Assembly: GCA_021413845.1 (NCBI GenBank)
Contig: JAIOPP010000006.1
Coordinates: forward strand, 62,001-126,000
Length of the DNA stretch: 64,000 bases
Direction of reading: 5' to 3'
Source of the DNA: Planctomycetia bacterium
GTDB lineage: Bacteria > Planctomycetota > Planctomycetia > Pirellulales > PNKZ01
Positions 7,949-49,785 of the stretch are shown here, piece after piece. The position numbers and the translations under genes were made by a program. Numbering within the stretch: the first letter of the stretch is position 1; every line of letters begins with the position of its first letter. The notes under the pieces were generated by a model. It did not search any database. It saw nothing but the letters and a program-made list of their open reading frames with translations, and was not told where the DNA came from.

Positions 7949-10900
7949 AGAATCCGAATACGCTGGAAGGCGAACTACGATCGGTCGCGGCTCGCTTTCG
8001 GCGACGAGCTCTGTGGCGCAGTCTGACGATCGTTTGGATCGTGGCGATCGTTGCTCTAGCGGCGACGTATTTCATCGTGCCCGATCGATTTCGCGCCGGG
8101 CTCGGAGGCGGCCTGTTTCTCGGAGCGATCGGAGCCGCCGCCGTGGCGGTCGCCGTTGCTCAGCTACGGAAATTCGATTTGCGCAAGGTGGCTCATGAGG
8201 TTGAGCTGCGCTATCCCGATCTGCAAACGAAACTACTCGCGGCCTTCGAGCAAGAACGGGCCTCGATGACCGGGCAGCGAGGTTTTCTCGAACAGGAATT
8301 GATTAAAGAGGCCCGCATCCACTCGCTGACGCACGCTCGTTGGCGGGAGACCGTGCCGACGAGCGAACTGCGGATGTGGGCCGTCGCGCAGGGTGCGGTC
8401 TCGCTGATCGTGCTGCTCATGTTCGGACTTCAGATGCTCTCGCAACGCCGCGAGAGCGGGATGGAGACGAGCGTCGCCGCCGATGAAACGCCGGCAAAAC
8501 CGCTTTGGAAATTCGAAGTCGAGCCGGGGGACGTCGAACTCGAGCGAGGAACCGATCTGCTGGTGCTCGCCCGTTTTCCCGAGCCGATCAAACTCCCGCG
8601 CGAAGCCGTGCTGCACGCCACCGACGTAGCGGGCGAACAACGACACCCGCTCGTGCAGAGCTTGAGCGATCCGGTGTTCGCGGCCCGCGTTCCGGAAGTG
8701 CGGGCGGATCTCACCTATCGTCTGACGTTCGAGGATCAGACTTCGCGCGAGTTCAAGGTCTCGGTGTTCGACTATCCCGAGTTGGAGCGGGCCGACGCGG
8801 AGTTGAACTATCCTTCATATACCGAGCTTCCCAAGCGACGCATCGAAGACGTGCGGCAGTTGAGCGTGCTCGAAGGGAGCGAGGTCAAGCTGCTTTGTCG
8901 CTTGAACAAACCGGTCGCTTCGGCAAGCCTAGTCCCCGCGGAAGGGGAAGCGATTGCGCTCGCCCCGTCTCCCGATGACAAGCAACTTTACATCGCGGCG
9001 CAAGTCGTATCGAAGAGCGTTCGTTGGCGACTGGAGCTTGTCGACGAGCGCGGCCGCAAGAACCGTGAGAACGTCGAGTTCGTCGTCGAGGTGGTGCCGA
9101 ACCGACCGCCGGAATTGAAACTTTTGTTTCCGCGCAACGACGTGGCCGTGTCGCCGTTGCAAGAGGTTCCGTTGGAAGTGGAAGCGTCCGACGATTTCGG
9201 GGTGGTCCGGTGGGGCTTAGCTTACGAGTTGACCGGCAAGAAGACGAGCTCGTTGACGCTCGGCGAGAAACTCCCGGCGAAGGAAAAGCGGAGCGGCAAG
9301 CACTTGCTCGCGCTCGAAGACTTGAAGGCGGTTCCCGACGAACTCCTGGCATGGCACGTGTGGGCCGAAGACCTCGGGCCCGACGGCAAACTGCGCCGCA
9401 CGACGAGCGACATCTACTTCGCCGAGGTGAATCCGTTCGAAGAGATTTTCCGCGAATCGACGATGGAAGGAGGGGGACCGCCGGGAGAAAAGTCGCCCGT
9501 CGACGAAACGGCGAAGCTGCAAAAAGAGATCATCTCCGCGACGTGGAATCTGCGCCGGCGCGAAAGCGGCGAGAAACCCTCGGCCCCCTACGGTTCCGAT
9601 GTGCGCGTGATCGCCGAAGCGCAGCAAAAGACGCTCGATTCGTTGGAGAAGATGAAAGAGAAACTCCGTTCGCCCGATGCGCTCGCGATCGTCGCCGAGA
9701 TCGAGAAGCAAATGCAAGCCGCCAAGGCGGAACTCACCGCCGCGGCCGACTCAGCCACGCTTCCACCGCTCGACAAAGCCTTGCCGCCGGAGCAGGCCGC
9801 CTATCAAGGTTTGCTCAAACTTCGGGCTCGCGAGACCCGCATCATGCGTATGAAGAATGCGCAAGGCGGGGGCGGTGCCGAAAGCCCGGCGGGCCAGAAG
9901 CTCGATCAACTGGAACTCAGCGAAGAAGAGAACCGCTACGAAAAGCGAGGGAAGTCGGCCGACCCGAACGAGACGCCCGCTCAACGCGAACGGGAAGCGT
10001 TTCTGAATCGGCTGCGCGAGTTGGCCCGTCGACAAGAAGACATGAACGAGAAGATCAAGGAACTCCAAGCGGCCTTGGAAGCGGCGAAAAATGAAGAGCA
10101 AAAGAAGGAACTCGAACGGCAGCTCAAGCGCCTCCGCGACGAGCAGCGCGAGCAGCTGCGCAACGTCGACGAACTTAAGAACAAGCTCGACAAGCCGGAG
10201 CATAACGAACCCCTCGCCGAAGCGAGCAAGAAGCTGGAAGAGACTCGCGAGAACATTCGGCAGGCTTCCGATGCGCTGGAGAAGGGGCAAACCCCGCAAG
10301 CGCTGACCGCGGGTGCTCGCGCCGAGAGCGGGCTCGACAAGCTGCGCGAAGACTTCCGCAAAAAAACCGCCGGCCGGTTTGCGGACGAAGTGCGCGATCT
10401 CCTCGACAGAGCCCAGCAGTTGGACGACCGCCAACAAGCGATCGGCCGAGAACTGGCGGATGACAAACAGCAACCGAAGGGAGCCGGTTTGAAATCGAAG
10501 GGAACCGCCGCGGAGCCGAAGCTGGCCGAACGTCTCGCCGGTCAGCAGAAGGAGCTCGCCGGCGTGCTCGATCAAGCGCGCGAAATCACCGAGCGCGCCG
10601 AAGGAAACGAGCCGCTCCTGACCAAGCAGCTCTACGACGCGATTCGCGAATCGAGCCAGAAGCAGACGCCGCAAGCGGTCGATATGCTTCGTCAACTAGT
10701 CGAGCACGGACTGTCGCAAGAAGCGAAGAAAGTCGAACCTCGGGCCCGCGAAGGAATCAGCCAACTGCGCGACAAGATCGAGAAGGCGAGCCAAGGGGTG
10801 CTCGGCAACGATATCGAAAGCTTGCGCCGCGCGAAAAGCGAAGTCGACCGCCTTGCGCAAGCGCTCGAGGAAGAACTTCGGCGCGAAGATCCGAGCGCCG

Positions 10901-18395: not shown

Positions 18396-19805
18396 ATGAG
18401 TGCCAAATGTTTCACGCGCGGTCTTCTGATTCTCGTGCCGATGCTCATTGCGGCCTGTGCCGCAGGGGTATATTTCGCTCCTTCGCTACGAACCCGATTT
18501 CTCGCCGCGGTCGGTGCCGAAGCCGGCTACGAAAAGCCGGTGATGAAGCAACCCGACGAGCATGCGGGTCATGAGCACGGCAGCCATGACCATGCCGGAC
18601 ATAGCGAACAGAATTCGATCGAGCTCAGCACGCAGGCTCAAGCCAACATCGGCTTGAAGCTCGGGAAGGTCGAACTCACGACTTTCAACCGCACGATCTC
18701 GGTGCCGGGCATGTTGCGCGAACGGCCGGGTCGCTCGACCGTCGCGATCACGGCTCCGCTCACCGGCATCGTCACGCAGATTTTCCCGATTCTCGGCGAA
18801 GCGGTGCAGCCCGGCCAAAAGCTCTTCGAGTTGCGTCTGACGCATGAAGAGCTGGTACAGGCGCAAGGAGATTTTCTTCGCGTTGCCGAAGAACTCGACG
18901 TGATCGAGCGCGAGATCAAGCGATTGGAGAAGATCGCCGTCGACGGCGGCATCGCGGGGCGTCAGGTGCTCGAACGGCAATACGAACAACAAAACAAGCA
19001 AGCCGTGTTGAGGGCCCAACATCAAGCGCTCCTCTTGCATGGCCTATCCGAAGAACAAGTGAATGGGATTTTGACGAAGCGCACTTTGCTGCGAACGTTG
19101 ATGGTCTTCGTGCCGGAAGAACAAGAATCTGCGATCAAGAACGAGTCGCCGATACAAGTAACTTACGAAATTCAAGAACTGAAAATCGAGCGCGGGCAGA
19201 GCGTTACGGCCGGCGAAACGATGGCCGTGCTGACGGATCATGCGACGTTGTTCATCGAAGGAAGCGCGTTCGATAAAGACGTCCTCGCGGTCAATCGCAC
19301 GATCGAAAACGGCTGGCTCGTCGATGCGGCGATCGAAACGGAAGACGCGCCGCCGCAAGTCATCAGCAAACTGCCGATCTTATATGTGGCGGGAAAGGTC
19401 GATCCGGAAACGCGCACGTTTCATTTCTACGTGCCGCTTACGAATCCGCTGCTGCGCGACGTGAAATCGGCGGACGGTCATCGGTTTCTTAGTTGGCGCT
19501 ATAAGCCGGGCCAGCGCGTGCAAGTCGTGGTGCCGGTCGAGAAGTGGAAAGATCGGATCGTGTTGCCCGTCGGGGCCGTAGCTCAGAGCGGTGTGGAGAC
19601 CTACGTTTTCTCTCCCAACGGCGACCACTTCGATCGTCGAGCCGTGCATGTCGAATACCGCGATCGCTTCTCCGTGGTTATCGCCAACGATGGTTCGCTG
19701 TTTCCGGGCGATTCCGTAGTGCTAGCCGGTGCGCAACAAATGCAGCTGGCCTTGAAGAATAAATCGGGAGGGGCGATCGATCCGCATGCGGGACACAACC
19801 ACTAA
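18396..19805 (+). CDS. Heavy-metal RND efflux periplasmic adaptor (CzcB/CusB type)
   Basis: This is a 469-residue membrane-fusion protein. It has an N-terminal membrane anchor (about 9-28) and a His-rich metal-binding stretch at residues 55-69 (EHAGHEHGSHDHAGH). A barrel-sandwich half (TAPLTGIVTQIFPILGEAVQ) and an alpha-hairpin (about 150-220) follow, then beta-barrel and membrane-proximal domains, and a C-terminal PHAGHNH. The ATG at 18396 has AGGAA upstream. The adaptor links the inner-membrane pump to an outer-membrane channel; no CzcC/CusC-like channel is in the window. The His-rich ends favour Zn/Co/Cd or Cu/Ag, but the metal cannot be fixed by eye. Confidence 0.92.
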   Translation: MSAKCFTRGLLILVPMLIAACAAGVYFAPSLRTRFLAAVGAEAGYEKPVMKQPDEHAGHEHGSHDHAGHSEQNSIELSTQAQANIGLKLGKVELTTFNRTISVPGMLRERPGRSTVAITAPLTGIVTQIFPILGEAVQPGQKLFELRLTHEELVQAQGDFLRVAEELDVIEREIKRLEKIAVDGGIAGRQVLERQYEQQNKQAVLRAQHQALLLHGLSEEQVNGILTKRTLLRTLMVFVPEEQESAIKNESPIQVTYEIQELKIERGQSVTAGETMAVLTDHATLFIEGSAFDKDVLAVNRTIENGWLVDAAIETEDAPPQVISKLPILYVAGKVDPETRTFHFYVPLTNPLLRDVKSADGHRFLSWRYKPGQRVQVVVPVEKWKDRIVLPVGAVAQSGVETYVFSPNGDHFDRRAVHVEYRDRFSVVIANDGSLFPGDSVVLAGAQQMQLALKNKSGGAIDPHAGHNH

Positions 19806-19872: not shown

Positions 19873-22800
19873 ATGCTCAATGCCGTCATTAAATTCTCGC
19901 TTCGCTATCGCCTCGTGACGATTGCTTTAGCGCTCGTCGTCACTTGTTACGGCGGTTATGAGCTGTCGCAATTGCCGATCGACGTCTTTCCGGATCTCAA
20001 TCGTCCGCGGGTGACGATCATGACCGAAGCTCCCGGCCTTGCTCCCGAAGAAGTGGAGACGTTGATCACGTTCCCGCTCGAGTCGGTGCTCAACGGTGCT
20101 ACCGGCGTGCAGGCGGTGCGAAGTTCTTCCGGAGTCGGACTGTCGGTGATCTACGTTGAATTCGCTTGGGGTACGGATATCTACGTCGATCGGCAGATTG
20201 TGGCGGAGAAGATCGCGCTCGCGAGCGATCGGATGCCGAAAGGAGTCAGGCCGCAGTTGGCCCCCATCTCGTCGGTGATGGGTCAGATCATGCAGATCGG
20301 AATCTGGAGTGAAGGAGGAAAGACCGATCCGATGGAGGTGCGCACCACCGCCGATTGGCTCGTGCGCCAGCGCTTGCTGACGATTCCGGGAATCGCGCAG
20401 GTCGTCACGATGGGAGGAGGCCGGAAACAATTTCAGGTGCTGGTGAATCCCGAGAAACTTCTGAAATACGACCTGACTTTGGAAGATGTCGAGCATGCCG
20501 TGGCGGCAAGCAACTCGAATGCCACGGGAGGCTATTTGAATCAAGGAGGGAACGAGCTGTTGGTCCGTTCGCTGGGACGGATTCAAAAGATCGAGGAATT
20601 GGAAAGCGTCGTCGTTAAGGCGTCGTCGGATCGTTCGGTGTTGCTCGGCGATGTGGCGCGCGTGGCGGAAGGAGCGCAAGTCAAACGGGGCGACGCCGCC
20701 GTCGATGGAATGCCGGCCGTCATGCTCACGATCTCGAAGCAGCCCGGTGCCGATACGCGCAAGCTGACGGATGACGTCGTCCGGGCTCTGGAAGATCTCA
20801 AGCCATCGCTCCCGGCCGATTTCCGCATCAATACCGATGTGTATCAGCAAAAAACGTTCATCGATTTGAGCATCCAGAACGTCGTCGAGGCGCTTCGCGA
20901 CGGGGGGATACTCGTCGTCATCATCCTGTTTCTGTTTTTGCTTAACTTTCGCACCACGTTTATCACACTGACGGCAATCCCGCTGTCGATCGTGGTTACA
21001 GGCTTGATTTTCAAATGGTTCGACATGTCGATCAACACGATGACGCTCGGCGGATTGGCCGTCGCCATCGGCGAGCTCGTCGACGATGCGATCGTCGATG
21101 TCGAGAACATTTTCCGTCGCTTGCGCGAGAACCAACATGCGGCGCACCCGAAAACCGCGCTGCGCATCGTCTACGAAGCCAGCAGCGAAGTGCGCAACTC
21201 GATCGTCTTCAGCACGATTCTCGTCGTGTTGGTATTCGTTCCTTTGTTCGCGCTCGGCGGGATGGAAGGACGCTTGTTCACGCCGCTCGGCGTGGCCTAT
21301 ATCGTGTCGATTTCGGCATCGCTCGTCGTCTCGCTCACCGTGACACCGGTGCTTTCTTATTGGTTGCTGCCGCAGGCGAAGGTCATGGCGCACGACAAGG
21401 ACGGGCTGTTGGTTCGTGTGCTTAAAAACATCGCGGGACATGCAATTCGCCTCAGCGTGCGGCATCCGTGGCCGATTTTGACGACAGTTGCCGCGGCGGT
21501 CGTCGTGAGCCTCGTGGTCGTTTCGCAACTCGGCCGAGATTTTTTACCGTCGTTCAACGAAGGGAGCGTGCAGATCAACGTGCTGCTTCCGCCCGGCACG
21601 TCGCTCGACACGTCGAACCAGATCGCGGGCATGGTCGACCAACGGCTGAAGAAGATGCAGACCGACGGCAAGGTTCTGGCCTTCGGCCGACGGACGGGCC
21701 GAGCGGAACTCGACGAGCATGCCGAGGGGGTGAACGTTTCCGAGATTATCGTCAGCCTCAATCCGAACGCACATCAATCGCGCGAGGAAGTGCTGGCCGA
21801 GATGCGCGAAGAGCTCACGCAGGTGCCCGGCGTTACGATTTCGGCGGAGCAACCGTTGGCGCATCTCATCAGCCATATGCTTTCGGGCGTGAAAGCGCAA
21901 ATCGGCATCAAGCTCTACGGCGACGATCTCACCGTCTTGCGCACGAAGGCCGACGAAATGAAGGCGGCGATCGAGACGGTGGCGGGAGTCAAAGATCTGA
22001 TGGTCGAACAGCAAATCGAAATCCCACAACTTCAGATCAACCTCGACCGCCGGCAACTCGCCGCCAACGGCATGACTTCCGACTACGTGAACGAGTTCAT
22101 AGAAACGGCGATGAACGGTCGTGTCGTTTCCGAGATCGTGCTGGGAGAGCGGAAGTTCGATCTGGTCGTTCGATTGGAAGACGAATACCGCCAAGACCCG
22201 ACGAAGCTGCAACGGCTATCGTTGAACCTTCCGAGCGGCGGCCGCATCCCGCTCTCGTCGGTCGCGGAAATCATACCCGGCACCGGCCCGAATACGATCA
22301 ATCGCGAGAGCGTCAGGCGACGGATCATTCTTCAATGCAACACGGCGGGCCGCGACCTGAACTCCGTCGTGACGGATATTCAAAAGCGATTGGAGCCGAT
22401 CCGAGCGTCGCTCCCGAACGGATATCTCATCGAATACGGTGGACAATTCGAGAGCCAGAAAAACGCTACGCGCACGATCGGCCTGTTAAGTTTGATTTCG
22501 CTTTCGGCGATGTTCCTGGCGCTGTACACGTTGTTTCGCTCGGTAAATATGGCCCTGCAAGTGCTGTCGGCGCTGCCGATGGCCGCGATCGGCGCCGTCG
22601 CGGCGCTCGTCATCACCGGGCAATCGCTGACCGTCGCGAGCATGGTCGGATTTATTTCGCTCTCGGGCATCGCCTCGCGCAACGGCATCCTGCTGATCGC
22701 GCACTATTTGCATCTCGTTCGCTACGAGGGAGAGAAGTTCACGCCGGAAATGATCGAGCGCGCCGGCAAGGAACGCTTGGCCCCGATGCTGATGACGGCG

Positions 22801-23037
22801 CTCACGGCCGGCATCGCGCTGATTCCGCTAGTGCTCGCCTCCGGCGAACCGGGCAAGGAAATACTTTATCCGGTTGCGACGGTAATTCTCGGCGGCTTGA
22901 TCAGTTCGACGCTGCTCGACTTCTTCGTTCATCCCGCATTGTTCTGGCTCTTCGGGCGGAAAGATGCCGAGCACCAAGTCGCGGTCGGCGACGGCGATGA
23001 ACTCGACGAAGCGATCGCCGCGCCCCAGTCGCGTTAA
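19873..23037 (+). CDS. Heavy-metal RND efflux pump, inner membrane (CzcA/CusA family)
   Basis: This 1054-residue HME-RND transporter begins MLNAVIKFSLRYRLVTIALA and has PIDVFPDLNRPRV in the first strand region. The TM4 motif AIGELVDDAIVDVENIFRR carries the acidic residues of the proton relay. Twelve membrane segments fall in two repeats, with two large periplasmic loops, and the length is normal. GAGGA lies about 10 bases before the ATG. It is co-directional with the adaptor (67-base gap) and exports divalent or monovalent metal ions from periplasm or cytoplasm using the proton gradient. Its stop faces the end of the signalling operon with a 4-base convergent overlap (23034-23037). Confidence 0.95.
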   Translation: MLNAVIKFSLRYRLVTIALALVVTCYGGYELSQLPIDVFPDLNRPRVTIMTEAPGLAPEEVETLITFPLESVLNGATGVQAVRSSSGVGLSVIYVEFAWGTDIYVDRQIVAEKIALASDRMPKGVRPQLAPISSVMGQIMQIGIWSEGGKTDPMEVRTTADWLVRQRLLTIPGIAQVVTMGGGRKQFQVLVNPEKLLKYDLTLEDVEHAVAASNSNATGGYLNQGGNELLVRSLGRIQKIEELESVVVKASSDRSVLLGDVARVAEGAQVKRGDAAVDGMPAVMLTISKQPGADTRKLTDDVVRALEDLKPSLPADFRINTDVYQQKTFIDLSIQNVVEALRDGGILVVIILFLFLLNFRTTFITLTAIPLSIVVTGLIFKWFDMSINTMTLGGLAVAIGELVDDAIVDVENIFRRLRENQHAAHPKTALRIVYEASSEVRNSIVFSTILVVLVFVPLFALGGMEGRLFTPLGVAYIVSISASLVVSLTVTPVLSYWLLPQAKVMAHDKDGLLVRVLKNIAGHAIRLSVRHPWPILTTVAAAVVVSLVVVSQLGRDFLPSFNEGSVQINVLLPPGTSLDTSNQIAGMVDQRLKKMQTDGKVLAFGRRTGRAELDEHAEGVNVSEIIVSLNPNAHQSREEVLAEMREELTQVPGVTISAEQPLAHLISHMLSGVKAQIGIKLYGDDLTVLRTKADEMKAAIETVAGVKDLMVEQQIEIPQLQINLDRRQLAANGMTSDYVNEFIETAMNGRVVSEIVLGERKFDLVVRLEDEYRQDPTKLQRLSLNLPSGGRIPLSSVAEIIPGTGPNTINRESVRRRIILQCNTAGRDLNSVVTDIQKRLEPIRASLPNGYLIEYGGQFESQKNATRTIGLLSLISLSAMFLALYTLFRSVNMALQVLSALPMAAIGAVAALVITGQSLTVASMVGFISLSGIASRNGILLIAHYLHLVRYEGEKFTPEMIERAGKERLAPMLMTALTAGIALIPLVLASGEPGKEILYPVATVILGGLISSTLLDFFVHPALFWLFGRKDAEHQVAVGDGDELDEAIAAPQSR

Positions 23038-34572: not shown

Positions 34573-35391
34573 TTAGCTGAATTCGCCGCGTAGATAGTCT
34601 TGCGTATGTTTCTCGTGCGGGTTCTCGAAGAGCTCGTCGGTCTTCCGATGCTCGACGAGATAACCGGTTCGGCCACCCTTCGTGGTGTCGACGTACATGA
34701 ACGCCGTCGAGTCGGCGACCCGTTTCGCTTGTTGAAGGTTATGCGTCACGATCGCGATCGTGAACCGCTCCTTCAATTCCTTCATCAGATCTTCGATGCG
34801 GCGCGTGGCGATCGGAGCGAGAGCCGAGCAAGGCTCGTCCATCAGCAACACTTCCGGCTCCGTAGCGATGGCGCGCGCGATGCAGAGTCGTTGCTGTTGT
34901 CCGCCGGAGAGCGAGAGGCCGCTCTTCGTCAACTTATCTTTGACTTCGTCCCACAACGCAGCACCCTTCAACGCCTTTTCCACGCGCTCCGCCACGCTAT
35001 CTTTGCACCGATTGATGCGCAGCCCGAAAGCGACGTTGTTGTAGATGCTCATCGCAAACGGATTGGGCTGTTGAAAGACCATGCCGATGTAGCGACGGAC
35101 GGCGACGGGATCGATTCCGGCACCGTAGATGTCCTTCCCGCGGAAATGGACATGGCCCTCAAAGTGAAAGCCGCGCACGAGGTCGTTCATGCGATTGATA
35201 CAGCGCAGCGCCGTGCTCTTACCGCAACCGGAAGGGCCGATGAAGGCCGTGATCGTCTTCTTGCGAATGGGAATGTGCGCATCGCGAACCGCGAGGAACT
35301 TGCCGTAGTGCAGGTTCTTGATCTTGCAGTCGATGATGACGTCCGAACGAGCGCTGACCGTGTGAACCGGGGCGTTTTTAACAGCAGACAT
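34573..35391 (-). CDS. pstB: Phosphate ABC transporter ATP-binding protein PstB
   Basis: This 272-residue ATPase has Walker [10 protein letters not shown] (residues 52-60), signature [16 protein letters not shown], Walker [12 protein letters not shown] and a switch His in [18 protein letters not shown] and [16 protein letters not shown]-type sequence around the Q-loop are characteristic of PstB. It powers high-affinity phosphate import together with PstC and PstA encoded just upstream on the same strand (12-base gap). It is the last gene of the operon in the window; no phoU follows. Confidence 0.96.
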
Positions 35392-35403
35392 TGCCCACCG
35401 CTC

Positions 35404-36306
35404 CTAATGCGTATGAGATCGTCGAGATAGTAGTTGACCGATAACGTTGAGAACGAGCACCAACATGACGAGGACGAGCGAGGCGGTCCAAGCGAGTTCG
35501 ATTTGATCGTCGGACGGCATGCCGGAAAAGTTGTAGATCATGACGGCGAGCGAAGCCGTCGGTTCCATCAGTTCGAGATTGCCGTTGTGGACGAGCCAAT
35601 CTTTGCTGAACAAGGCCGTAAAAATCAGCGGAGCCGTTTCGCCCGCCGCTCGCGCAACCGCCAGCATGACCCCGGTGAGAATCCCCGGAATCGCGGTCGG
35701 CAACAGCACGCGCCACGCCAGTTGCGTCGAGGTGCAACCCATGCCGATGGCCGCTTCGCGCATCTTCGCCGGAACCATGCGGATCGCTTCTTCCGAAGTG
35801 AGAATGATCGTCGGCAGCATCAGTAAGGAAAGTGCCACGCCGCCGGCAGGAGCCGAGAAACCACCGGTCAGCAGCACCACCATCGCATAGGCAAACACAC
35901 CGGCGAGAATCGAAGGCAGCCCGGTAAGCGTCTTCGCACAGAAGCGAACGGCGCTCGCCGTGCGTGTCGTCGGGCCGATTTCAGCTAAGTAAACCGCAGC
36001 CAGGATCCCGAAAGGAATCGCGATTGCGGAGGCGATCCCGACCATCGCCAACGTACCGACGATGGCGTTGCCGAAGCCGCCGTCGGCGAGCGATTCGGTA
36101 AGCACGGTCCAGTTCAGACGCTTTCCGCCGCGCCAGATCAGCATCGCCAAGACCGAAACGAGCGGGAACATCGCGAGCAACGTCATGCCGCCCGTAAGCA
36201 GGCTAAGACCGGCGCTGAACGCGGCGCGCGGCGTATACAGCGACTTCTCGAGTTGCGGCAGATCGACCCCTTCGAAGGGATCGCGAATTTCGAGTTGAGC
36301 GCTCAT
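35404..36306 (-). CDS. pstA: Phosphate ABC transporter permease PstA
   Basis: This 300-residue permease has six membrane segments and the ABC permease EAA-like motif (REAAIGMGCTSTQLAWRVLLPTAIPGILTG). The start at 36306 (MSAQLEIRDPFEG) overlaps the pstC stop by the ATGA arrangement; a longer upstream reading would run through pstC in another frame. With PstC it forms the membrane channel for phosphate. The length and topology are normal for PstA. Confidence 0.95.
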   Translation of the reverse strand: MSAQLEIRDPFEGVDLPQLEKSLYTPRAAFSAGLSLLTGGMTLLAMFPLVSVLAMLIWRGGKRLNWTVLTESLADGGFGNAIVGTLAMVGIASAIAIPFGILAAVYLAEIGPTTRTASAVRFCAKTLTGLPSILAGVFAYAMVVLLTGGFSAPAGGVALSLLMLPTIILTSEEAIRMVPAKMREAAIGMGCTSTQLAWRVLLPTAIPGILTGVMLAVARAAGETAPLIFTALFSKDWLVHNGNLELMEPTASLAVMIYNFSGMPSDDQIELAWTASLVLVMLVLVLNVIGQLLSRRSHTH

Positions 36307-37289
36307 TTGGAAATACCCGACAGACGTGACGAAGCGCGGGACAGAATCAACGCACCGAGGAAGTTGACGGCCAAGGTGATAAGCAACAACACGAGAGCGG
36401 CATACATCAGCACTTGCACTTCGTGAGTGCCGGCTTCCGGAAAATGGTTGGCGAGCAGCGCCGCCAACGTATTGCCGGGCGAAAACAGCGACCAACTCAA
36501 TTTGTTGGAGTTGCCGACGAGCATCGCCAGCGCCATCGTCTCGCCCAACGCGCGACCGAAGCCGAGAACCATCGAACCGAAGATCCCGGTCGACGCCGTC
36601 GGCACGATCACGCCGAGAATCGCTTCCCAACGAGTCGCACCAAGACCGACCGCCGCTTCCTTCAACTTATTGGGAACGGAAACCAGCGCATCGCGCGAGA
36701 TTGCGGAAACCGTCGGCAAGATCATGATGCCGAGTACGAGCGCGGCCGGAAACATGCCGGGCCCGCTCAGCGCCGTGCTGAAGAACGGCACCTGACCGAG
36801 ATGCTCATGCAACCAATTGGCCGGACCACGAATCAACGGAATGACGACGAAGATCCCCCACAATCCATAGACGACGCTGGGGATAGCGGCGAGCAACTCG
36901 ATGATGTTCTTCGCGACCAACTCGACTTTCGGCGGCAGAAAATCTTGACTCAAAAAGATCGCGATCGCCACGCCGAACGTCGAGCCGATCAACAAGCCGA
37001 GCACGCTGCTGTAGAGCGTCCCCAAAATTTCCGGCTTGAGGCCGAACTGATCTCGGTTGGCGTCCCAGGTATCGGAAGTAATCAGGCTCAAGCCGTATTG
37101 CTGAATAGCGGGCAGCGCCTTCTCGCCGATCTGAAACACGATGAGAGCGACGAGCAGGATCGTCGCCCAAGCGAAGAACACGGTCGAGCCCCGAAAGGCT
37201 CGATCCATGAACTTGTCGCCCGAACTCGGCGGCCGCGAAAGACCGACGACTTCCGTTTCTTCGTATTCGCTGCTGGTGATCGTCGCCAT
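36303..37289 (-). CDS. pstC: Phosphate ABC transporter permease PstC
   Basis: This 328-residue permease begins with a cytoplasmic stretch (residues 1-35, SRPPSSGDKFMDRAFRG) and has six to seven membrane segments. The family motif is PNKLKEAAVGLGATRWEAIL, followed by GFGRALGETMALAMLVGN. It pairs with PstA and overlaps it by 4 bases. PstS is encoded 75 bases upstream, giving the classical order pstS-pstC-pstA-pstB. Confidence 0.95.
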   Translation of the reverse strand: MATITSSEYEETEVVGLSRPPSSGDKFMDRAFRGSTVFFAWATILLVALIVFQIGEKALPAIQQYGLSLITSDTWDANRDQFGLKPEILGTLYSSVLGLLIGSTFGVAIAIFLSQDFLPPKVELVAKNIIELLAAIPSVVYGLWGIFVVIPLIRGPANWLHEHLGQVPFFSTALSGPGMFPAALVLGIMILPTVSAISRDALVSVPNKLKEAAVGLGATRWEAILGVIVPTASTGIFGSMVLGFGRALGETMALAMLVGNSNKLSWSLFSPGNTLAALLANHFPEAGTHEVQVLMYAALVLLLITLAVNFLGALILSRASSRLSGISK

Positions 37290-37364
37290 GAAAAACTACT
37301 CGAATGAAAATCAAAACGATCGGATCGATCGCATACTCGAACTTTCAACACCGCAGACGATCGA

Positions 37365-38444
37365 CTACGGCTTGATCTTGTCGAGCGCCTTGGCGACCTT
37401 ATCCGTCACAGCAGCCGGCAATGGGATATAGCCATGCTCTTCGCTGATCTTCTGGCCTTCGGTGAGGCCGTAGCGAATGACGTCTTTGAGAGTCTTCGCC
37501 TTGTCGGCGTCGGCGTAGTTCGTGTAGGTGAGCAGCCACGTGTAAGTGACGATCGGGTAAGAATCCTTGCCGGCCGGGTCCGGAATCCACACGATCAGAT
37601 TGTCGGGCATCGGCACCGAAGCGAGAGCGGCTTGAGCGCTCTTCGTTTCAGCTACGACGAAAGCACCTTCTTTATTCTCAAGCGCGGCGACGGAAAGCTT
37701 CGCTTGGCTGACGAATCCGAATTCGATGTAACCGATCGCGCCGGGAGTTTGCTTGATCGTCGCGGCGATGCCGTCGTTCTTCTTGGCGCCGATCGCGGCG
37801 GTTGCCGGCCAAGCCACGGTCTTGTCGGTGCCGGGACCCTTCTTCCATTCCTCGCTGATCGCCGACAAGTGTTGCGTGAAGACGAACGTGGTTCCGCTGC
37901 TATCGGCCCGATGGACCGGGGTGATCTTCGTATCGGGGAGCGTAACGCCGGCGTTCGACTTGGCGATCGCCTCGTCGTTCCATTTCGTGATCTTGCCGAG
38001 AAAGATGCCGACATAGGCTTCGCGCGAGAGCTTGATGTTCTCGGGCGCACCTGGAACGTTGTACGCAAGCACGATGCTGCCGGCCGTCATCGGCAACAGC
38101 ACGACGCCCCCTTCGACCTTCGCAATCTCGGCATCGGTCATCGCCGCATCGCTCGCCGCGAAGTCGACCGTCTTATTCGTCAGCTGCGTGATGCCGCCGC
38201 CGCTGCCGATTCCCTGATAGTTGATGCTCACGCCGGGATGCAGCTTCCGGTAGTCGGCAAACCATTTGTCGTAGAGCGGGAACGGAAAGCTAGCCCCTGC
38301 GCCGGCGAGCTTGACGTTTCCCGATGCAGCCGAGCCGGAGCCCCCCGCTGACGAGCCCGACGTCGAACCGGACTTCGAGCACGCAGCAATCGTGAAGCAG
38401 GTGAGAATCAAAAACGTGTACGGCAAGACGCGACGCATGGTCAT
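37365..38444 (-). CDS. pstS: Phosphate-binding lipoprotein PstS
   Basis: This 359-residue binding protein has a lipoprotein signal: a hydrophobic run ending in TIAAC with Cys22. Mature features are GAGASFPFPLYDKWFADY, YQGIGSGGGITQLTNKTVDFAASDAAM in two blocks, and SSGTTFVFTQHL, all typical of PstS phosphate-contact loops. It captures phosphate in the periplasm for PstCAB. A second ATG two codons later is possible. The gene is divergent from polyphosphate kinase across a 275-base shared upstream region. Confidence 0.95.
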   Translation of the reverse strand: MTMRRVLPYTFLILTCFTIAACSKSGSTSGSSAGGSGSAASGNVKLAGAGASFPFPLYDKWFADYRKLHPGVSINYQGIGSGGGITQLTNKTVDFAASDAAMTDAEIAKVEGGVVLLPMTAGSIVLAYNVPGAPENIKLSREAYVGIFLGKITKWNDEAIAKSNAGVTLPDTKITPVHRADSSGTTFVFTQHLSAISEEWKKGPGTDKTVAWPATAAIGAKKNDGIAATIKQTPGAIGYIEFGFVSQAKLSVAALENKEGAFVVAETKSAQAALASVPMPDNLIVWIPDPAGKDSYPIVTYTWLLTYTNYADADKAKTLKDVIRYGLTEGQKISEEHGYIPLPAAVTDKVAKALDKIKP

Positions 38445-43082: not shown

Positions 43083-45173
43083 ATGTCGACTACGCTCGAT
43101 CCAAGAACGCCGGCACCCGGCCCGACACCCAGCATTGAAAAGCTGCGCGAACTCCATGCGCGCCTCGCTGCGCAGGCGCGCGCCGCGAACCAGCCCGAAC
43201 GATTCTTTCGTGAGTTTCTTACCTCGACGACCGCTGCGCTCGACGGCACGGCGGGCGCAGTTTGGATCGCAGACCGAGGCAGCTTACGCCTAGCTGCCGA
43301 ACAGCACCTATCCACCGACGACCGCGCGCACTACGAACGACTGGCGGCCGAAGCGTTTGCCGAAGGAGCCGGGAGATTCGTCGGTCGCGACGGCCGAACG
43401 CTCGGCGAATCGCGCAACGAAAACCAGCCTCAAGCGCACACTGCGACGCAGCACGACGCCGTTATGTCGTATCCGATTCGCATCGGCACCGCGGTATTGG
43501 GAATCGTCTCGATCGGCTTCGCCGACGAGCCGGCACGCGGCGCCCAGAGCGCGTTGCAACGAACGCTCGTTCCGCTGTGCGACCACGCGGCCGATTATCT
43601 CTTTCGCCGCCGGATCGATACGAACACCACGAGCGACGATCGCGAGACGAGCTTTGCGCAGCGCATCGCGGAGTTCGCGCTCGAAGTCCACGCGCCGCTC
43701 GATTTACGACGGACCGCCGCCGCGATCGCCAACGAAGCGCGGCGCCTCACCGATAGCGATCGGGCCGGAATCTGCGTCTATCGTCGTCGCCGAGCCGAGG
43801 CGTTCGCCGTCAGTGGACAAGATTATTTGGATCGACGCTCGAATTTGGTTCGGCGCTTAGAAACCCTCGCGGCAGCCGTCGCCGCCAGCGGCGAGAAGCT
43901 TCGTTTCCCGCACGACGATACGGCACTCGCCCCGCAAGTGGAATCGGCTCTGCACGCATATCTCGATGAATCGCAAGCTCGCGAACTGACCGTGGTGCCT
44001 CTCCGTTGCGGAGCGACGGCAACCGATGAAATCGTCGGCGTGCTGACGATCGAACAAATCGCGACAGCCGCGCCGATCCCGAAGCCGCATATCTCGCAGA
44101 GCAGCGACGATCGTCGACAGAGCCCGACTATGGAGTCGACTCCGCATCACGAGGCAGAAGGCTTGAACCTCCTTGAGTCGCTGATTCCGCACGCCGCGAC
44201 CGCACTCACCAACGCGCTTCGTTACGATGCCGTGCCGCTCCGTTCGTTGACCCGACCGTTTGCCACCCTCGATGCCTTCACCGGCGGAAGCAGACTGAAG
44301 AAACGATTGCTGGCCCTCGGTGCGGCGGTCGGTATCGTTGCGGCGCTCTGCGTCGTTCCCTACGATTTCGCCGTCGAAGCGCGCGGCACGTTGCAACCGG
44401 TCGATCGTCGCGATGTGTTCGCCTCGGTCGATGGAATCGTGAATAAGATCTTCATCCGTCACGGCGATCGAGTACGTGTCGGCGACCCGCTCTTCGAACT
44501 GCGCAGCACCGACCTCGACGTGGCGGAAGCCGATCTCATCAAAGAGATCAACGAGACCGAACAAGAATTCGCAAACGCGCAGCGGCAATACAACGAAGGT
44601 CGTTCGCTGACGGCCGCGGAAATGCAGCGCCTCGTCGGCCAGATCGCCACGCTCGAACAGCGCCGCGAGAGCTTGCGCCGACAAGCGACGTTGTTTTCCG
44701 AAAAGCGGGCGCGGCTTCGCGTCGTCAGTCCGATGGTCGGGCAAGTCGCCACTTGGAACATCGAAGAGCTTCTCGCCGAGCGGCCCGTTCGCCAAGGGCA
44801 AACGCTTGCCGGCTTGGTCGATCCGGATGGCGAGTGGGAAGTCGAGATTCGCGTACCCGAGGATCGCTTCGGACACGTCGCCGAAAAGCATCGAGCCGGG
44901 CTTCCACCGCTTGAGATCACGTTCGTCCTCGCGACCGATCCGGGCCATGAATACAAAGGGACCGTCGTCGAGACGCACCTGGCGGCCGAGCCGCGCGGTG
45001 AGGAAGGAAACGTCGTGCTCGTCACGGCGAAGATCGATAAAAGCCTGCTCGCGCAACTTCATCCCGGCGCAGATGTCCGCGTCCGCGTCGAATGCGGTTC
45101 GCGCTCGCTCGGCTATGTGTTGCTGCATGATGTTTGGAGCTTCGTGCAGTCGCGAATTTTGTTCAAGCTTTAG
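43083..45173 (+). CDS. GAF-domain membrane-fusion (HlyD-type) protein
   Basis: This 696-residue protein has a cytoplasmic N-terminal half with two GAF-like domains (about 15-165 and 185-385) separated by short linkers. A single membrane segment lies near 407-425 (LLALGAAVGIVAALCVVPYD). The HlyD-type periplasmic part has a barrel-sandwich (RGTLQPVDRRDVFASVDGIV), a short alpha-hairpin (about 475-535) and a second half-motif (VVSPMVGQVATWNI). GGAG lies 7 bases before the ATG. Fusing a ligand-sensing domain to an export adaptor is unusual and suggests control of assembly by a cytoplasmic signal. It is followed by two more adaptor genes on the same strand. Confidence 0.85.
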   Translation: MSTTLDPRTPAPGPTPSIEKLRELHARLAAQARAANQPERFFREFLTSTTAALDGTAGAVWIADRGSLRLAAEQHLSTDDRAHYERLAAEAFAEGAGRFVGRDGRTLGESRNENQPQAHTATQHDAVMSYPIRIGTAVLGIVSIGFADEPARGAQSALQRTLVPLCDHAADYLFRRRIDTNTTSDDRETSFAQRIAEFALEVHAPLDLRRTAAAIANEARRLTDSDRAGICVYRRRRAEAFAVSGQDYLDRRSNLVRRLETLAAAVAASGEKLRFPHDDTALAPQVESALHAYLDESQARELTVVPLRCGATATDEIVGVLTIEQIATAAPIPKPHISQSSDDRRQSPTMESTPHHEAEGLNLLESLIPHAATALTNALRYDAVPLRSLTRPFATLDAFTGGSRLKKRLLALGAAVGIVAALCVVPYDFAVEARGTLQPVDRRDVFASVDGIVNKIFIRHGDRVRVGDPLFELRSTDLDVAEADLIKEINETEQEFANAQRQYNEGRSLTAAEMQRLVGQIATLEQRRESLRRQATLFSEKRARLRVVSPMVGQVATWNIEELLAERPVRQGQTLAGLVDPDGEWEVEIRVPEDRFGHVAEKHRAGLPPLEITFVLATDPGHEYKGTVVETHLAAEPRGEEGNVVLVTAKIDKSLLAQLHPGADVRVRVECGSRSLGYVLLHDVWSFVQSRILFKL

Positions 45174-45217
45174 AGGAATCGCAAACCCGAGTTTTGCGAT
45201 AGGGCAAGGATGCCGGT

Positions 45218-46558
45218 ATGAGAAGTCAGACACACAGCCGCTTCAACCGCTTACGCACGGCAGCCGTGGTTGCATGCGGCTTGGCGTCGGTTATCGGCGC
45301 GCAGATTTCAAGCGTGGTTGCGCAATCGTTCCATGCGAAGCCCGCCGCGCCGCAATCGCCGGTCGAGCCGCCGCAGGAATTGCCCGTCGGTATGGAATCG
45401 CGTCCGATCAACGAGGCTCGCCCGAACATCGATCCTCATCGCGCGGCGCGCGGCCGCAACGACGGGAGCGTTGCACCGACGCAATTCGTCGATCGCTACG
45501 GTAGCGGCGGCTATCAAGCTCCGGCGCAGAGCAACATCCATAGCAATCTTCCGACTAGCCCATCGAACCTACCGCAGGGCGGCGCGATTCCGCCTAGCTC
45601 GGCAAACGGTTCGTCGGCAAATAGCGCCGCCCTCGGCGGAACCGCCGCGGTGCCGGTGCTCCGGCATTGCGTGGTGAAGCTGATCGATCAGGTCACGGTC
45701 TCGGTGCAAGAGCCCGGCATCGTCACGGCTCTGGAAGTGCGCGAAGGGATGATGGTCGAAGCCGAGGCGCAGGTCGGGCGCGTGAGCGACAGTCAATCGC
45801 GTATGGCGAAGCTCGTCGCCGAGGCGGAGCATAAGATCGCGCAAGACCGCGCCGGAAACGATATCGAAATTCGCTATGCCGAGTCGGCGGCGAAGGTCGC
45901 CGAATTCGAGTACCGCGCCGGACTCCAAGCCAATCAGAAGGCCGCGAATTCGATCTCGCAAGTGAAGCTGCAAGAGATGGCTTTGTCTTACGAAAAAGCT
46001 CAGCGCCAGATCGAGCAAGCGCAACACAATTTGCAGATCTCGAAAGAAGAAGCCGAAGCGAAACGGGTCGAGGTCGATGCGGCCGAAGATAGCGTGCGAC
46101 GTCGCCAAATCACGAGTCCTATCGGCGGCGAAGTGGTCGAAGTGCCGGTGCATGTCGGCGAATGGGTTCAACCGGGCGATCCGATTTTTCGGATCATTCG
46201 CTTGGATCAACTGGCGGTCGAAGGTTTCTTACGCGCCGCCGACTATACTCCCGGCGAGATCGTAGGGAAACCGGTCGTCGTCGAGTTGCTGCTCGCGCGC
46301 GGGCGGCCGATGCAATTCACCGGCAAGGTCACGTTCGTACATCCTGAAATCGACGGCCGTGGTCAATTCCGCGTGAAGGCCGAAGTGACGAATGTCGCCG
46401 AAAACGGTCAGTATCTCCTTCGCCCGGGCCACGACGTCGATATGGCGATTCGCACCGATGCGGCTGCCGCCGCGCCGATCGCCATGCCTACCGAGCCGGC
46501 TGCGACGACGCCTCCCGTGCCGCTAACCGGTAGCTTGCCGGCCGCTCCCCAACGCTAA
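45218..46558 (+). CDS. Secreted HlyD-type periplasmic adaptor
   Basis: This 446-residue protein has a signal peptide or anchor (about 12-36) and a long Pro/Ser/Asn/Gly-rich linker (about 40-140). The first barrel-sandwich half reads VSVQEPGIVTALEVREGMMV. A coiled-coil hairpin of about 100 residues (190-290) and a second half (ITSPIGGEVVEVPVHVGEWVQPGD) follow, then a beta-barrel domain. The tail is Ala/Pro-rich. It sits 44 bases after the GAF-HlyD gene with AAGGA before the ATG. It probably oligomerises into a periplasmic conduit with the flanking membrane proteins. No ABC or RND transporter is adjacent, so the partner pump is unknown. Confidence 0.86.
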   Translation: MRSQTHSRFNRLRTAAVVACGLASVIGAQISSVVAQSFHAKPAAPQSPVEPPQELPVGMESRPINEARPNIDPHRAARGRNDGSVAPTQFVDRYGSGGYQAPAQSNIHSNLPTSPSNLPQGGAIPPSSANGSSANSAALGGTAAVPVLRHCVVKLIDQVTVSVQEPGIVTALEVREGMMVEAEAQVGRVSDSQSRMAKLVAEAEHKIAQDRAGNDIEIRYAESAAKVAEFEYRAGLQANQKAANSISQVKLQEMALSYEKAQRQIEQAQHNLQISKEEAEAKRVEVDAAEDSVRRRQITSPIGGEVVEVPVHVGEWVQPGDPIFRIIRLDQLAVEGFLRAADYTPGEIVGKPVVVELLLARGRPMQFTGKVTFVHPEIDGRGQFRVKAEVTNVAENGQYLLRPGHDVDMAIRTDAAAAAPIAMPTEPAATTPPVPLTGSLPAAPQR

Positions 46559-46576
46559 AACCGCGGCACGCGCCTC

Positions 46577-48820
46577 ATGTCGACGATCGCCGAACTGCCG
46601 ACGACTGCGAGCGAACGCGCTACGACGGTGCGGGCCCGCGTCGATCTTCGCGCGGTTCGGCAACTCCATCAAGGAGTCGTCGGCTGGATCATTAAGAACC
46701 CGCTGAGCCTCGACTACTATCGGCTGCTCGATGAAGAATACTTCTTGCTCCGTCAGCTCGACGGCCGCAAAACTCCGAGCGAGATCAAGCGAGCCTTCGA
46801 GTCGCGTTATGCTCCGCAAACGATCGACTTCGACGAGATCCAGCGCTACATTGCGCTCCTCCATCGCGACGGCTTGGTCGTTTCCGCAGCGGCCGGACAA
46901 GCCGAGCCGCTCGCACGTCGGAGCGAGGAACGGAAGCTGCAGATGCGGCGCGAGCGCTACGGCAACCCGTTCGCGCTCCGCTTTCGCGGCGTCGATCCCG
47001 ATCGATTGCTGAACGGACTTTATCCTTGGCTCGGCTGGTTCTTTTCGTCCTGGTGCGTGCTGATTTGCAGCGCCATGATCGGCGCGGCGGGGCTCGCGAT
47101 CGTGGCCCGGTTCGATGAGTTCGCGGCGGCTCTTCCGACGTTTCATCAGTTCTTCACGCCGTCGAATATCGCGTGGCTCGGCGTCTCGCTCGCGGTCGTG
47201 AAGGTGTTGCATGAGTTGGGGCACGGCCTCGCTTGCAAGCACTTCGGCGGAGAATGCCATGAGCTCGGTTTCATGCTTTTGTTTTTCACGCCGACGATGT
47301 ACTGCAACGTCTCCGACTCTTGGTTGCTGCCGAATAAATGGCAACGGGCCGCGATCGGTGCGGCCGGCATGTACGTCGAACTAGTGATTGCGGCGCCGGC
47401 CGTGTTTCTCTGGCGGTTCAGCGAGCCCGGAATTGTCCATAGCCTGGCGCTCAACGTGATCTTCATTTGCACCGTGAGCACGCTGCTGGTGAACGCGAAT
47501 CCGCTGATGCGCTACGACGGCTACTATATCCTTTCCGACCTCTTGGAGATTACGAACCTCGGCTCGAAAGCGACCGCCGCGCTCCGTCGCGGAGCCGGTC
47601 GGCTCTGTCTCGGCATTCGTTATGCCGACGCCGACGATCCTCTTCTGCCGCGCAAGCATGTCGGCCTGTTCGTCGCGTATGCCGTGGCGTCGAGCGTGTA
47701 TCGGTGGTTCGTCTTCTTCGGCATCTTGTGGTTCTTCAACAAAGTCTTCGAGCCGTACAGGCTCGACGTCGTCGGCCATGCGTTCGGCGCGATCGCCGTC
47801 GGCGGGCTGATTCTCATGCCGATCCGCGGCGTGCGACGATTTTTTTCGGTTCCTGGGAGGATGCAACTCGTGAACAAGTCTCGCGCGGCGGTCACGATCT
47901 CGGTGCTGGGAGCGATCGTCTTCGCGGCGCTCGTGGTTCCACTGCCGCATCGGGCCTACGCACCGCTCGAAGTTCGGCCGCGCGATGCACATTCCGTTTA
48001 CGTCGAAGTGCCCGGCACGATCGAAGCGGTCTTCGTGCGCCCAGGAGAAGCGATCGTCGCCGGCCAACCGCTGGCGAAGCTCGCGAATGTCGACGTGCGC
48101 ATCGAAGTCGACCGGCTCGTCGGCCGGCGCGATGAGGCACGCGTAATGTTGGCCTCGATGCAGAAGGAACGCTTCACCGATCCGTTGGCAGCGTCGCGCG
48201 CGGCGCTCGCCGAACAATCGCTCGCGGCGCTCGATCAACTGCTGGCGAAGCGCGAAGCCGATCTCGAGCGACTCACGATCCGCGCGCCGACGGCAGGCAC
48301 CGTGCTGCCGCCCCCGGAAACGGCACCGCAACCGACGGACGATGGCCGGCTGCGCGAATGGTCGGGCACGCCGCTCGATAAGAAAAACATCGGCAGCACG
48401 CTCCCTGCCGGAACGCTGTTCTGCCGGATCGGCGACCCGAACCGCATGGAGGCGATGCTGCTCGTCGATCAGGGAGACATCGAATTCATCCACCTCGAAC
48501 AACCGGTCGACGTGCGACTGAACGAGACGCCGGGTAGAACGTGGCATGCGCAAGTGCGCGAGATCTCGAAGACCGATGCGAAGATCGCTCCGCGGCAACT
48601 CTCGAATAAGTCGGGCGGCGAGATGGCGACCCGCACCGACGACACCGGCACGGAGCGATTGCGCTCCGCCGCGTATCAAGTGCGGGTCTTCCCGCTCGAC
48701 GATCCCCACGGCATGCTACGCATCGCACTCGCCGGCGAAGCGAAGATCTACGTCGGCACGCAGACCCCGGCACAGATGCTCGCGCGAGGGTTTCGACAGA
48801 CGTTTCATTTCGAATGGTGA
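46577..48820 (+). CDS. PqqD-like / M50-type membrane zinc protease / HlyD fusion protein
   Basis: This protein has 747 residues. Residues 15-95 look like a PqqD-type winged helix (YYRLLDEEYFLLRQLDGRKT, then LHRDGLVVS), a fold used as a RiPP recognition element. A polytopic membrane region (about 150-430) carries HELGH at 212-216 and NPLMRYDG with Asp314, the M50/site-2-protease zinc ligands. CHELGFMLLFFTPTMYCNVSDS follows the first motif, as in peptide zinc metalloproteases. The C-terminal third (about 450-735) is HlyD-type with a barrel-sandwich and short hairpin. It starts 18 bases after the preceding adaptor. I infer recognition and cleavage or export of a peptide. The substrate was not found. 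Confidence 0.83.
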   Translation: MSTIAELPTTASERATTVRARVDLRAVRQLHQGVVGWIIKNPLSLDYYRLLDEEYFLLRQLDGRKTPSEIKRAFESRYAPQTIDFDEIQRYIALLHRDGLVVSAAAGQAEPLARRSEERKLQMRRERYGNPFALRFRGVDPDRLLNGLYPWLGWFFSSWCVLICSAMIGAAGLAIVARFDEFAAALPTFHQFFTPSNIAWLGVSLAVVKVLHELGHGLACKHFGGECHELGFMLLFFTPTMYCNVSDSWLLPNKWQRAAIGAAGMYVELVIAAPAVFLWRFSEPGIVHSLALNVIFICTVSTLLVNANPLMRYDGYYILSDLLEITNLGSKATAALRRGAGRLCLGIRYADADDPLLPRKHVGLFVAYAVASSVYRWFVFFGILWFFNKVFEPYRLDVVGHAFGAIAVGGLILMPIRGVRRFFSVPGRMQLVNKSRAAVTISVLGAIVFAALVVPLPHRAYAPLEVRPRDAHSVYVEVPGTIEAVFVRPGEAIVAGQPLAKLANVDVRIEVDRLVGRRDEARVMLASMQKERFTDPLAASRAALAEQSLAALDQLLAKREADLERLTIRAPTAGTVLPPPETAPQPTDDGRLREWSGTPLDKKNIGSTLPAGTLFCRIGDPNRMEAMLLVDQGDIEFIHLEQPVDVRLNETPGRTWHAQVREISKTDAKIAPRQLSNKSGGEMATRTDDTGTERLRSAAYQVRVFPLDDPHGMLRIALAGEAKIYVGTQTPAQMLARGFRQTFHFEW

Positions 48821-49785
48821 GCGTGAGCGCGAAAGTCTCCCAGGCGCTGCCAAGTTCGACCGTCGCCGCTTGCGATTTCACGATCCCCACGCGCATCGTC
48901 TTCGTACAACTCCGGATGCACCAAGCGCGATAAGAGCTCCAGGCTATCCACGATCCTCGGTCCTGAGCGATTGAACAGCGCATTCCCGTTGACAGCATAG
49001 ACGTTCCCCGCGCGCACGGCCGTGAGCTCGTTCCAGCCCGGTCGTTGCGGTAGATCGGCCGCTTCGCGAAGCGTGCGCTCGAGATCGAAGCCGCACGGCA
49101 GGACGACGATCACCTCGGGATCGAAGGCGCGAATCGTTTCCCAATCGGTATAGGTGCTGTGTTCCCCGGCCGTAGTCGCCGCTTGAGTGCCGCCGGCAAG
49201 GTCGACGAGTTCCGGCGTCCAATTCGCGGCAACCATCAGCGGCTCGATCCATTCGATGCACGTCACACGTCGGCGACGTTCGGCGGGCAAGTTGCCCGTC
49301 CGTGCGCGAACCGTGTCGATTCTTGCCACCAAGCTCTTCACATACGCGGCACCCTCGTCCATCCGATTGGTTGCGATGGCGAGGCGGCGAATATCGCCGA
49401 GAATGTCGTGGAGAAAATGAGGGTTGAGCGCGACGATTTGCGTCGAGGCCAGCGCTTCTTCCGACTGGACCGTCGCGACGACGTCGTCGTAGCGGATCGC
49501 GCACACATCGCACTGCGCTTGCGTGACGATGAGGTCCGGCGCAAGCCGAACCAAGAGCTCTACGTCGATTTCGTACAATGGCTTCCCGGCCGCGACCAAC
49601 TCCTTCACCTGCCGGTCGATCATGGCGCTCGGAGCATCGGCCGAGATATTCGTGAACGAGATCTTCGGCTTCGCGAGAACCTCGGCGGGGAAATCGCATT
49701 CGTGACTCACCGCGACGACTTGCTCGCCGAGGCCGAGTCCGTAGAGCATTTCGGTAGCGCTGGAAATAAACGAAGCAATGCGCAT
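48805..49785 (-). CDS. BtuF-like (cobalamin/Fe-siderophore type) binding protein without signal peptide
   Basis: This 326-residue type III periplasmic-binding-protein fold begins MRIASFISSATEMLYGLGLG with VAVSHECDFP, typical of a cobalamin-binding subgroup. YEIDVELLVRLAPDLIVTQAQCDVC, EWIEPLMVAANWTPELVDLAGG and VRAGNVYAVNGNALFNRSGPR are further family motifs. No signal peptide is present, so it may be cytoplasmic, as in related planctomycete and cyanobacterial proteins. Its 3' end overlaps the end of the M50-HlyD gene by 16 bases on the other strand. No BtuC or BtuD gene is near. Confidence 0.85.
   Translation of the reverse strand: MRIASFISSATEMLYGLGLGEQVVAVSHECDFPAEVLAKPKISFTNISADAPSAMIDRQVKELVAAGKPLYEIDVELLVRLAPDLIVTQAQCDVCAIRYDDVVATVQSEEALASTQIVALNPHFLHDILGDIRRLAIATNRMDEGAAYVKSLVARIDTVRARTGNLPAERRRRVTCIEWIEPLMVAANWTPELVDLAGGTQAATTAGEHSTYTDWETIRAFDPEVIVVLPCGFDLERTLREAADLPQRPGWNELTAVRAGNVYAVNGNALFNRSGPRIVDSLELLSRLVHPELYEDDARGDREIASGDGRTWQRLGDFRAHAHHSK

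Follow-up and report, generated by a model that had tools for sequence, protein, structure and literature searches.

Three consecutive genes of the window, that is, the whole stretch of 64,000 nucleotides of planctomycete DNA analyzed here, encode adaptors of the HlyD type, and in the last of them the adaptor is fused to a PqqD-like domain and a membrane protease. The locus raises the question of what such proteins recognize, cut and pass out of the cell. An earlier reading made from the sequence alone (the sequence-only reading) had proposed a peptide as the possible cargo, recognized and cut by the third protein and handed to a conduit built by the other two and gated by a cytoplasmic ligand.

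The Three Genes and Their Domains

The three genes, named A, B and C, all lie on the plus strand with gaps of 44 bases (A-B) and 18 bases (B-C), and the open reading frames and coordinates bear out what had first been read. Gene A (43083..45173, +) encodes a protein of 696 aa with a GAF domain at residues 207-331 (43701..44075; Pfam GAF, E 1.4e-11), one transmembrane segment predicted by a hydropathy scan at residues 406-433 (44298..44381) and a HlyD/barrel-sandwich part at residues 444-662 (44412..45068; Pfam HlyD_D23 and HlyD_3). Two GAF domains had been claimed for this protein; one of them, the transmembrane segment and the HlyD part were recovered, but the first GAF domain was not detected by Pfam. 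A GAF match in 17 of 19 homologues of protein A agrees with its description as a sensor. Gene B (45218..46558, +) encodes an exported HlyD-type adaptor of 446 aa, in which a hydrophobic N-terminal stretch (residues 15-35), a long linker and a HlyD region (approximately 247-426) were found, as expected for the secreted protein with a long linker described before.

Gene C (46577..48820, +) encodes a protein of 747 aa. It comprises a PqqD/RRE-like domain at residues 16-103 (46622..46885), assigned by AF2 modeling and Foldseek/VIA-align comparison; the zinc motif HELGH at residues 212-216 (47210..47224) and the motif NPLMRYDG, with Asp314, at residues 308-315 (47498..47521), both taken from the conservation in 33 homologues; and a HlyD adaptor part at residues 456-743 (47942..48805), detected by Pfam and by Foldseek of the full model. 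The positions first given for the two motifs were exact, and the adaptor domains of the three proteins support the proposed membrane-fusion conduit. A Peripla_BP_2 gene on the minus strand (48805-49785) runs toward gene C, shares 16 bases with its 3' end and seems unrelated.

No TolC-type gene or giant cargo gene was recognized within the window, and no SecA gene, TolC gene or giant with a leader was seen near the trio. The absence of ABC and RND pumps from the window, also part of the sequence-only reading, was wrong. An RND pump of the AcrB/CusA type is encoded at 19873-23037 (E 3e-267), 20 kb from the trio, and is accompanied by its own HlyD_D23 adaptor (18396-19805), forming a separate efflux pair. 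An ABC ATPase is encoded at 34573-35391, 5 kb or more from the trio and near a phosphate-type binding protein gene. Judging from its first and last frames, which were scanned, the minus-strand stretch at 34573-38444 resembles the locus of a phosphate (Pst) importer: it holds this ATPase, two membrane-protein-like open reading frames and a gene for a PBP_like_2 binding protein.

Protein C Combines an RRE-like Fold and an M50 Protease

Foldseek analysis of the full-length model of protein C returned the adaptors MacA, EmrA, AcrA and MexA and, since adaptors filled this list, the N-terminal domain was modeled separately. Residues 1-115 alone were modeled by AF2 (32 rows) with a pLDDT of 84 as three strands followed by three helices, the three-stranded sheet and three helices also seen in RRE structures. 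The best ten PDB matches found by Foldseek were all RRE/PqqD proteins, among them TbiB1 with leader peptide, PqqD, TigE, lasso B1 with leader and CteB, with modest E-values (2.5e-3 to 0.13) and probabilities near 1. VIA-align against TbiB1 gave a Z of 10.6 and 2.9 A over 86 residues; some other winged-helix proteins reach 8-9. At E<=0.1, the Pfam PqqD profile matched 20 of the 33 homologues, with 3.5e-4 as the best value; the protein of the window was unmatched at this threshold. The model and both structural comparisons thus support the PqqD-like fold that had been suspected in this region.

H212, E213, H216, N308, P309 and D314 were invariant across the 33 homologues, which share 35-60% identity with the window protein. 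Protein C gave an M50 match and has the HExxH motif and the distal Asp in membrane helices that define M50 (site-2) proteases. Over residues 37-422 it was matched by the NCBIfam daptide protease model (daptide_HExxH, NF041824; E 2.6e-51, 174.9 bits, under the 300-bit cut-off), and a second match was to the YydH/LiaK epipeptide protease model (NF058609; E 3.7e-12, 46.4 bits, under the 225-bit cut-off). The fold and the conserved protease residues favor leader recognition and cutting as first proposed, both binding and cleavage being predictions. The three findings that were to count against that proposal, namely a missing PqqD-like fold, loss of the HExxH/Asp residues and constant linkage to a drug pump, were not encountered.

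The Module in Other Genomes

The question of whether these genes occur together elsewhere was answered by 80 planctomycete loci with homologues of gene C. An adaptor gene was found directly upstream of C in 68 of them and two adaptors in 46, so that the arrangement is not due to chance. DUF3467 was encoded near C in 22/80 loci, SecA in 8/80 and OEP in 5/80, counts in which at least ten of the loci sit on short contigs. In the neighborhoods of C that were examined, the recurring elements were DUF3467, a short ATPase resembling SecA, channels of the TolC type and giants that start with an LExRxLL leader. Neither pumps (RND, MFS or ABC) nor genes for small precursors or for radical-SAM/modifying enzymes were observed as recurrent neighbors of C. 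The small-peptide cargo of the sequence-only reading is consequently unsupported, these other elements recurring in its place.

Of 59 planctomycete genomes, 14 have C and 12 have a secondary SecA; C is present in 11 of the latter (Fisher 1.5e-8). A SecA was classed as secondary by eye from the length of its open frame and the number of loci. The secondary SecA often lies within 350 bp of C. In genome G036 (L131:3-9020) and in the matching place of G052, a secondary SecA without an adjoining C has two giants with the leader LEDRTLL beside it. The DUF3467 protein, of approximately 110-140 aa, has conserved NFCRVTG and TAKR motifs (L009:8243-8560, L020 and plasmid operons) and is perhaps a chaperone or adaptor for the leader or for SecA.

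The module was described by Kamneva, Poudel and Ward (2015; PMC4452313), who reported in several phyla a secondary SecA_DEAD gene adjoining GAF+HlyD, HlyD and M50(-HlyD) genes. In their proposal, a SecA motor works together with an M50 part in the membrane; the wider role was described as "completely unknown". As in that module, GAF+HlyD, HlyD and M50+HlyD genes stand together in the trio, and a secondary SecA_DEAD gene is present in the genome, outside the window. A SecA-like motor, a HlyD conduit and GAF regulation are likewise suggested roles in both, and the two agree in that an OEP gene is sometimes near and SecA is sometimes unlinked. The window copy differs in that SecA, channel and cargo are all unlinked to the trio. 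The trio is a further copy of the module reported in 2015, whose cargo was then unnamed; the words PqqD and DUF3467 are absent from the main text of that paper. What is new here, to judge from the literature consulted, is that protein C has an RRE fold, that DUF3467 is a partner and that giants of the LExR/LEPR-XLL type are linked to the module as candidate cargo.

Paralogues and Likely Partners in the Same Genome

Eight copies of gene C, that of the window included, were found in the genome. The sequence-only reading had missed the seven further copies and the report of 2015. The locus of contig C126 contains A, B and C together with a short SecA-like ATPase and DUF3467. A TolC-type gene is divergent to the trio genes on contigs C90, C56 and C57 (at 68 kb), and TolC-type genes together with a short SecA occur on contigs C49 and C57 (at 92 kb). 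Giants of more than 2,200 aa adjoin the copies of contigs C56 and C57 (68 kb). Beside the copy of contig C49 (L013:4696-5618), two tiny proteins (71 and 86 aa) have LEDRITPS at their start and repetitive Gly/Ser/Lys/His tails; these may possibly be mini-cargo or gene remnants.

Five SecA_DEAD genes were found, one of full length and four secondary. Three of the secondary genes adjoin copies of C (contigs C126, C49 and C57), and the fourth, with DUF3467 before it, is located at contig C6:36247, which precedes the trio by 67 kb and falls beyond the window. On this contig (L020:8874-11148), the DUF3467 gene (8874-9215) is followed by the short SecA-like gene without an adjoining trio. The short SecAs retain the GEGKT Walker motif and the DEAD-box residues and end before most of the scaffold/wing, with Pfam SecA_SW absent or reduced to a 30-residue fragment; they thus lack most of the helical scaffold and wing domain of a canonical SecA.

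The contig C6 SecA is closest to that of contig C126 (54%), as is the window protein C to its paralogue there (44%). An unpaired TolC-type gene at contig C84:31510 shares 40-44% identity with the channels of the clusters. From these sequence relationships, the most likely partners of the window trio would be the SecA-like gene at contig C6:36247 and the TolC-type gene at C84:31510. Cargo was sought in this genome by profile and around the paralogues, and would be one or more giant LExR proteins encoded elsewhere in the genome.

Giant Proteins with an LExRxLL Leader

Plasmid-borne homologues of gene C in Proteobacteria often share an operon with a giant gene, which heads it. These giant genes measure between 7.0 and 48.7 kb, and the products of two are annotated as LEPR-XLL. 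All ten of the proteobacterial giants that could be read at their start carried a leader; the start of three more lies beyond the stretch of sequence examined. This leader is basic and non-hydrophobic and ends in [LMI]ExRx[LIMV][LF]. In operons with SecA-like and/or DUF3467 genes it reads MEPRVLLSAD, LEPRFLLSAD, LEPRVLLNAD, LEPRYLLSAD, IEPRILLSAD or LEPRLLLSAD, and in operons without either gene LEPRFMFDAA, LESRQLFDGA, LEPRMLFDGA or LEARYMFDAA. The two flavors, LLSAD/LLNAD in operons that have SecA and [ML]FDxA in those that do not (L112, L113, L169 and L173 against L108-L111 and L174), may mark two subtypes of the exporter. The neighboring protein read in the Magnetospirillum and Phyllobacterium plasmid loci had no motif. 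Since operons with LExR giants exist without SecA, protein C, as the constant element, is suggested by these arrangements to be the putative reader of the leader.

Planctomycete giants encoded close to C or to a secondary SecA often have a leader as well, such as LEDRRVLTA, LEPRLALTI, LEDRTLLSA and LESRQLLSA. In the genome of the window, LEDRRVLTA occurs beside the 68-kb copy of contig C57 and the variant YEDRILFSA beside its 92-kb copy. A cadherin-like giant beside the C56 copy (L011:738-8674, minus strand) has the leader MEERRVFA in another frame, and its open reading frame is therefore frameshifted or misassembled. The leaders are basic, with a median net charge of +5, and a Sec-like hydrophobic stretch was found in none of 25, versus 76% of 100 N-termini of OEP and adaptor proteins.

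The leader was present in 17 of 609 proteins of C/SecA loci, compared with 1 of 300 proteins from control loci (p 0.007); one evident false match per set had been struck out on visual inspection. With the motif reversed, there was no occurrence in the former loci and one in the latter. As four planctomycete giants had no NCBIfam match, the leader was defined from aligned sequences. A degenerate DNA pattern for the leader, run on 59 genomes, was overall no better than its reversed control and was replaced by a profile of 26 positions built from the aligned sequences and run on the same number of genomes. Pfam PF07595 gave weak matches over the genome of the window, and one giant matched it at E 0.0024, below the cut-off.

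With the profile (E<=0.05, frame of at least 1000 aa), leader giants were detected in 11 of the 14 genomes with C and in 1 of the 45 without it. After removal of the training genomes and their close kin, the proportions were 6/9 and 1/45 (p 2e-5), and at E<=0.01 and any length they were 5/9 and 2/45 in this reduced set (p 7e-4), p-values for which the cut-offs were chosen after the list had been seen and kinship among genomes was ignored. Three genomes with C (G018, G004 and G045) had no clear leader match by profile. Two genomes without C had strong matches, G033 (C58:8251) and G040 (C11:23182), arising by chance or from another exporter. Of the 35 strong matches in genomes with C, 6 had C or a secondary SecA no more than 20 kb away (approximately 0.9 expected), four of these six coming from one genus, and many leader proteins are encoded far from C.

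Discussion

The explanation that best fits these results, and which we hold to be probable though well short of certain, is that the trio forms the core, at the inner membrane and in the periplasm, of an exporter for giant surface proteins that resembles type I secretion, reads a leader, is assisted by SecA and works without an ABC transporter. The sequence comparisons indicate giant surface proteins with an LExRxLL start as candidate cargo. In such an exporter, the leader of the giant protein would be bound in the cytoplasm by the RRE domain of protein C, and the unfolded chain would be driven by the SecA-like ATPase in systems that have one. The M50 domain would remove the leader at the membrane, and the passage itself may be formed or gated by the membrane part of protein C. 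A funnel leading to TolC would be built from the HlyD parts of proteins A, B and C, with the GAF region of protein A as regulator of the exporter, and the window trio would use a SecA, a channel and a cargo encoded elsewhere.

The leaders of the giants beside C fit both the LEPR-XLL entry of NCBI and the planctomycete motif RRLxxExLExRxLLA, a putative novel export signal (Studholme et al., 2004; PF07595; cited in PMC8567305). Proteomics of Tuwongella detected 20 of 52 proteins with this motif, eight of them solely in the SDS fraction (PMC8567305). In the part of that source used here, the signal is only described and no exporter is named for it. Literature searches for LEPR-XLL returned only unrelated papers matching "LexR", those joining PqqD, M50, HlyD, TolC and giant proteins nothing on topic, and those for DUF4347 nothing useful. 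A more specific proposal, which we advance tentatively and with slightly less than even confidence, is that the trio reads this orphan signal, the RRE reading it, the intramembrane protease cutting it and the SecA-like ATPase pushing the protein through TolC in one step, and that the system shares its root with the removal of RiPP leaders by RRE-proteases.

Two known systems are instructive. The closest relatives studied so far are RRE-fused intramembrane proteases, which remove RiPP leaders. Among them, the RRE-dependent intramembrane peptidase MpaP removes the leader of daptides (PMC10036551), and the epipeptide and pearlin pathways likewise involve M50 proteases (PMC10885120). MpaP and protein C both join an N-terminal RRE to a protease of the M50/S2P type, but protein C has in addition a HlyD adaptor, neighbors that are adaptors, SecA or TolC, a probable giant substrate and a score below the family cut-off. 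The daptide precursor motif ELExMEAP resembles ExLExRxLL, a likeness that may serve as a lead. With type I secretion, the system shares HlyD-type adaptors, here in the window, and TolC, in the form of OEP genes beside the paralogues, and presumably the one-step export of large proteins. It differs in that no ABC transporter is found beside the trio or was seen to recur beside the homologues, in its N-terminal rather than C-terminal signal, in its SecA-like ATPase and in the fusion of the protease to an adaptor.

The weight of the exporter reading depends on how other explanations deal with the same data. If protein C recognized and cut a small modified precursor peptide that A and B passed outside, its RRE fold, the sub-cut-off matches to the daptide and YydH/LiaK proteases and the precedent of RRE-S2P proteins removing RiPP leaders would all be accounted for; the recurrence of leader-bearing giants would not, SecA and TolC suit a large protein better, and RiPP cargo was set aside as quite improbable because recurring small precursor or modifying genes were not seen. 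The giants might also leave by ordinary Sec or another exporter, their clustering reflecting surface-protein islands and the trio performing, for example, regulated intramembrane proteolysis. The many leader proteins unlinked to C and the two genomes with strong leader matches but no C speak for this. Against it stand the lack of a Sec-type hydrophobic core in the leaders, the co-occurrence at the genome level, which holds without the training genomes, and the giant at the head of the operon in Proteobacteria, and we regard it as unlikely. That A, B and C are plain adaptors for the efflux of small molecules or metals has very little probability in our judgment, despite the HlyD/RND_mfp and TolC domains and the RND pump within the window: that pump is distant and has its own adaptor, a machine of this kind would have no use for a protease and an RRE domain, what C was seen paired with is SecA or leader giants, and a plain pump was set aside since none was seen to recur beside C.

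The exporter proposed here links an export signal known since 2004 without an exporter to a module known since 2015 without a cargo, and makes both directly testable. If true, it would constitute a secretion route of Gram-negative bacteria in which an RRE-protease-adaptor fusion and a SecA-like motor replace the ABC transporter, a SecA-assisted counterpart of type I secretion for proteins of thousands of residues. It would also explain how the products of genes of up to 48.7 kb, the size of the largest operon partner, leave the cell.
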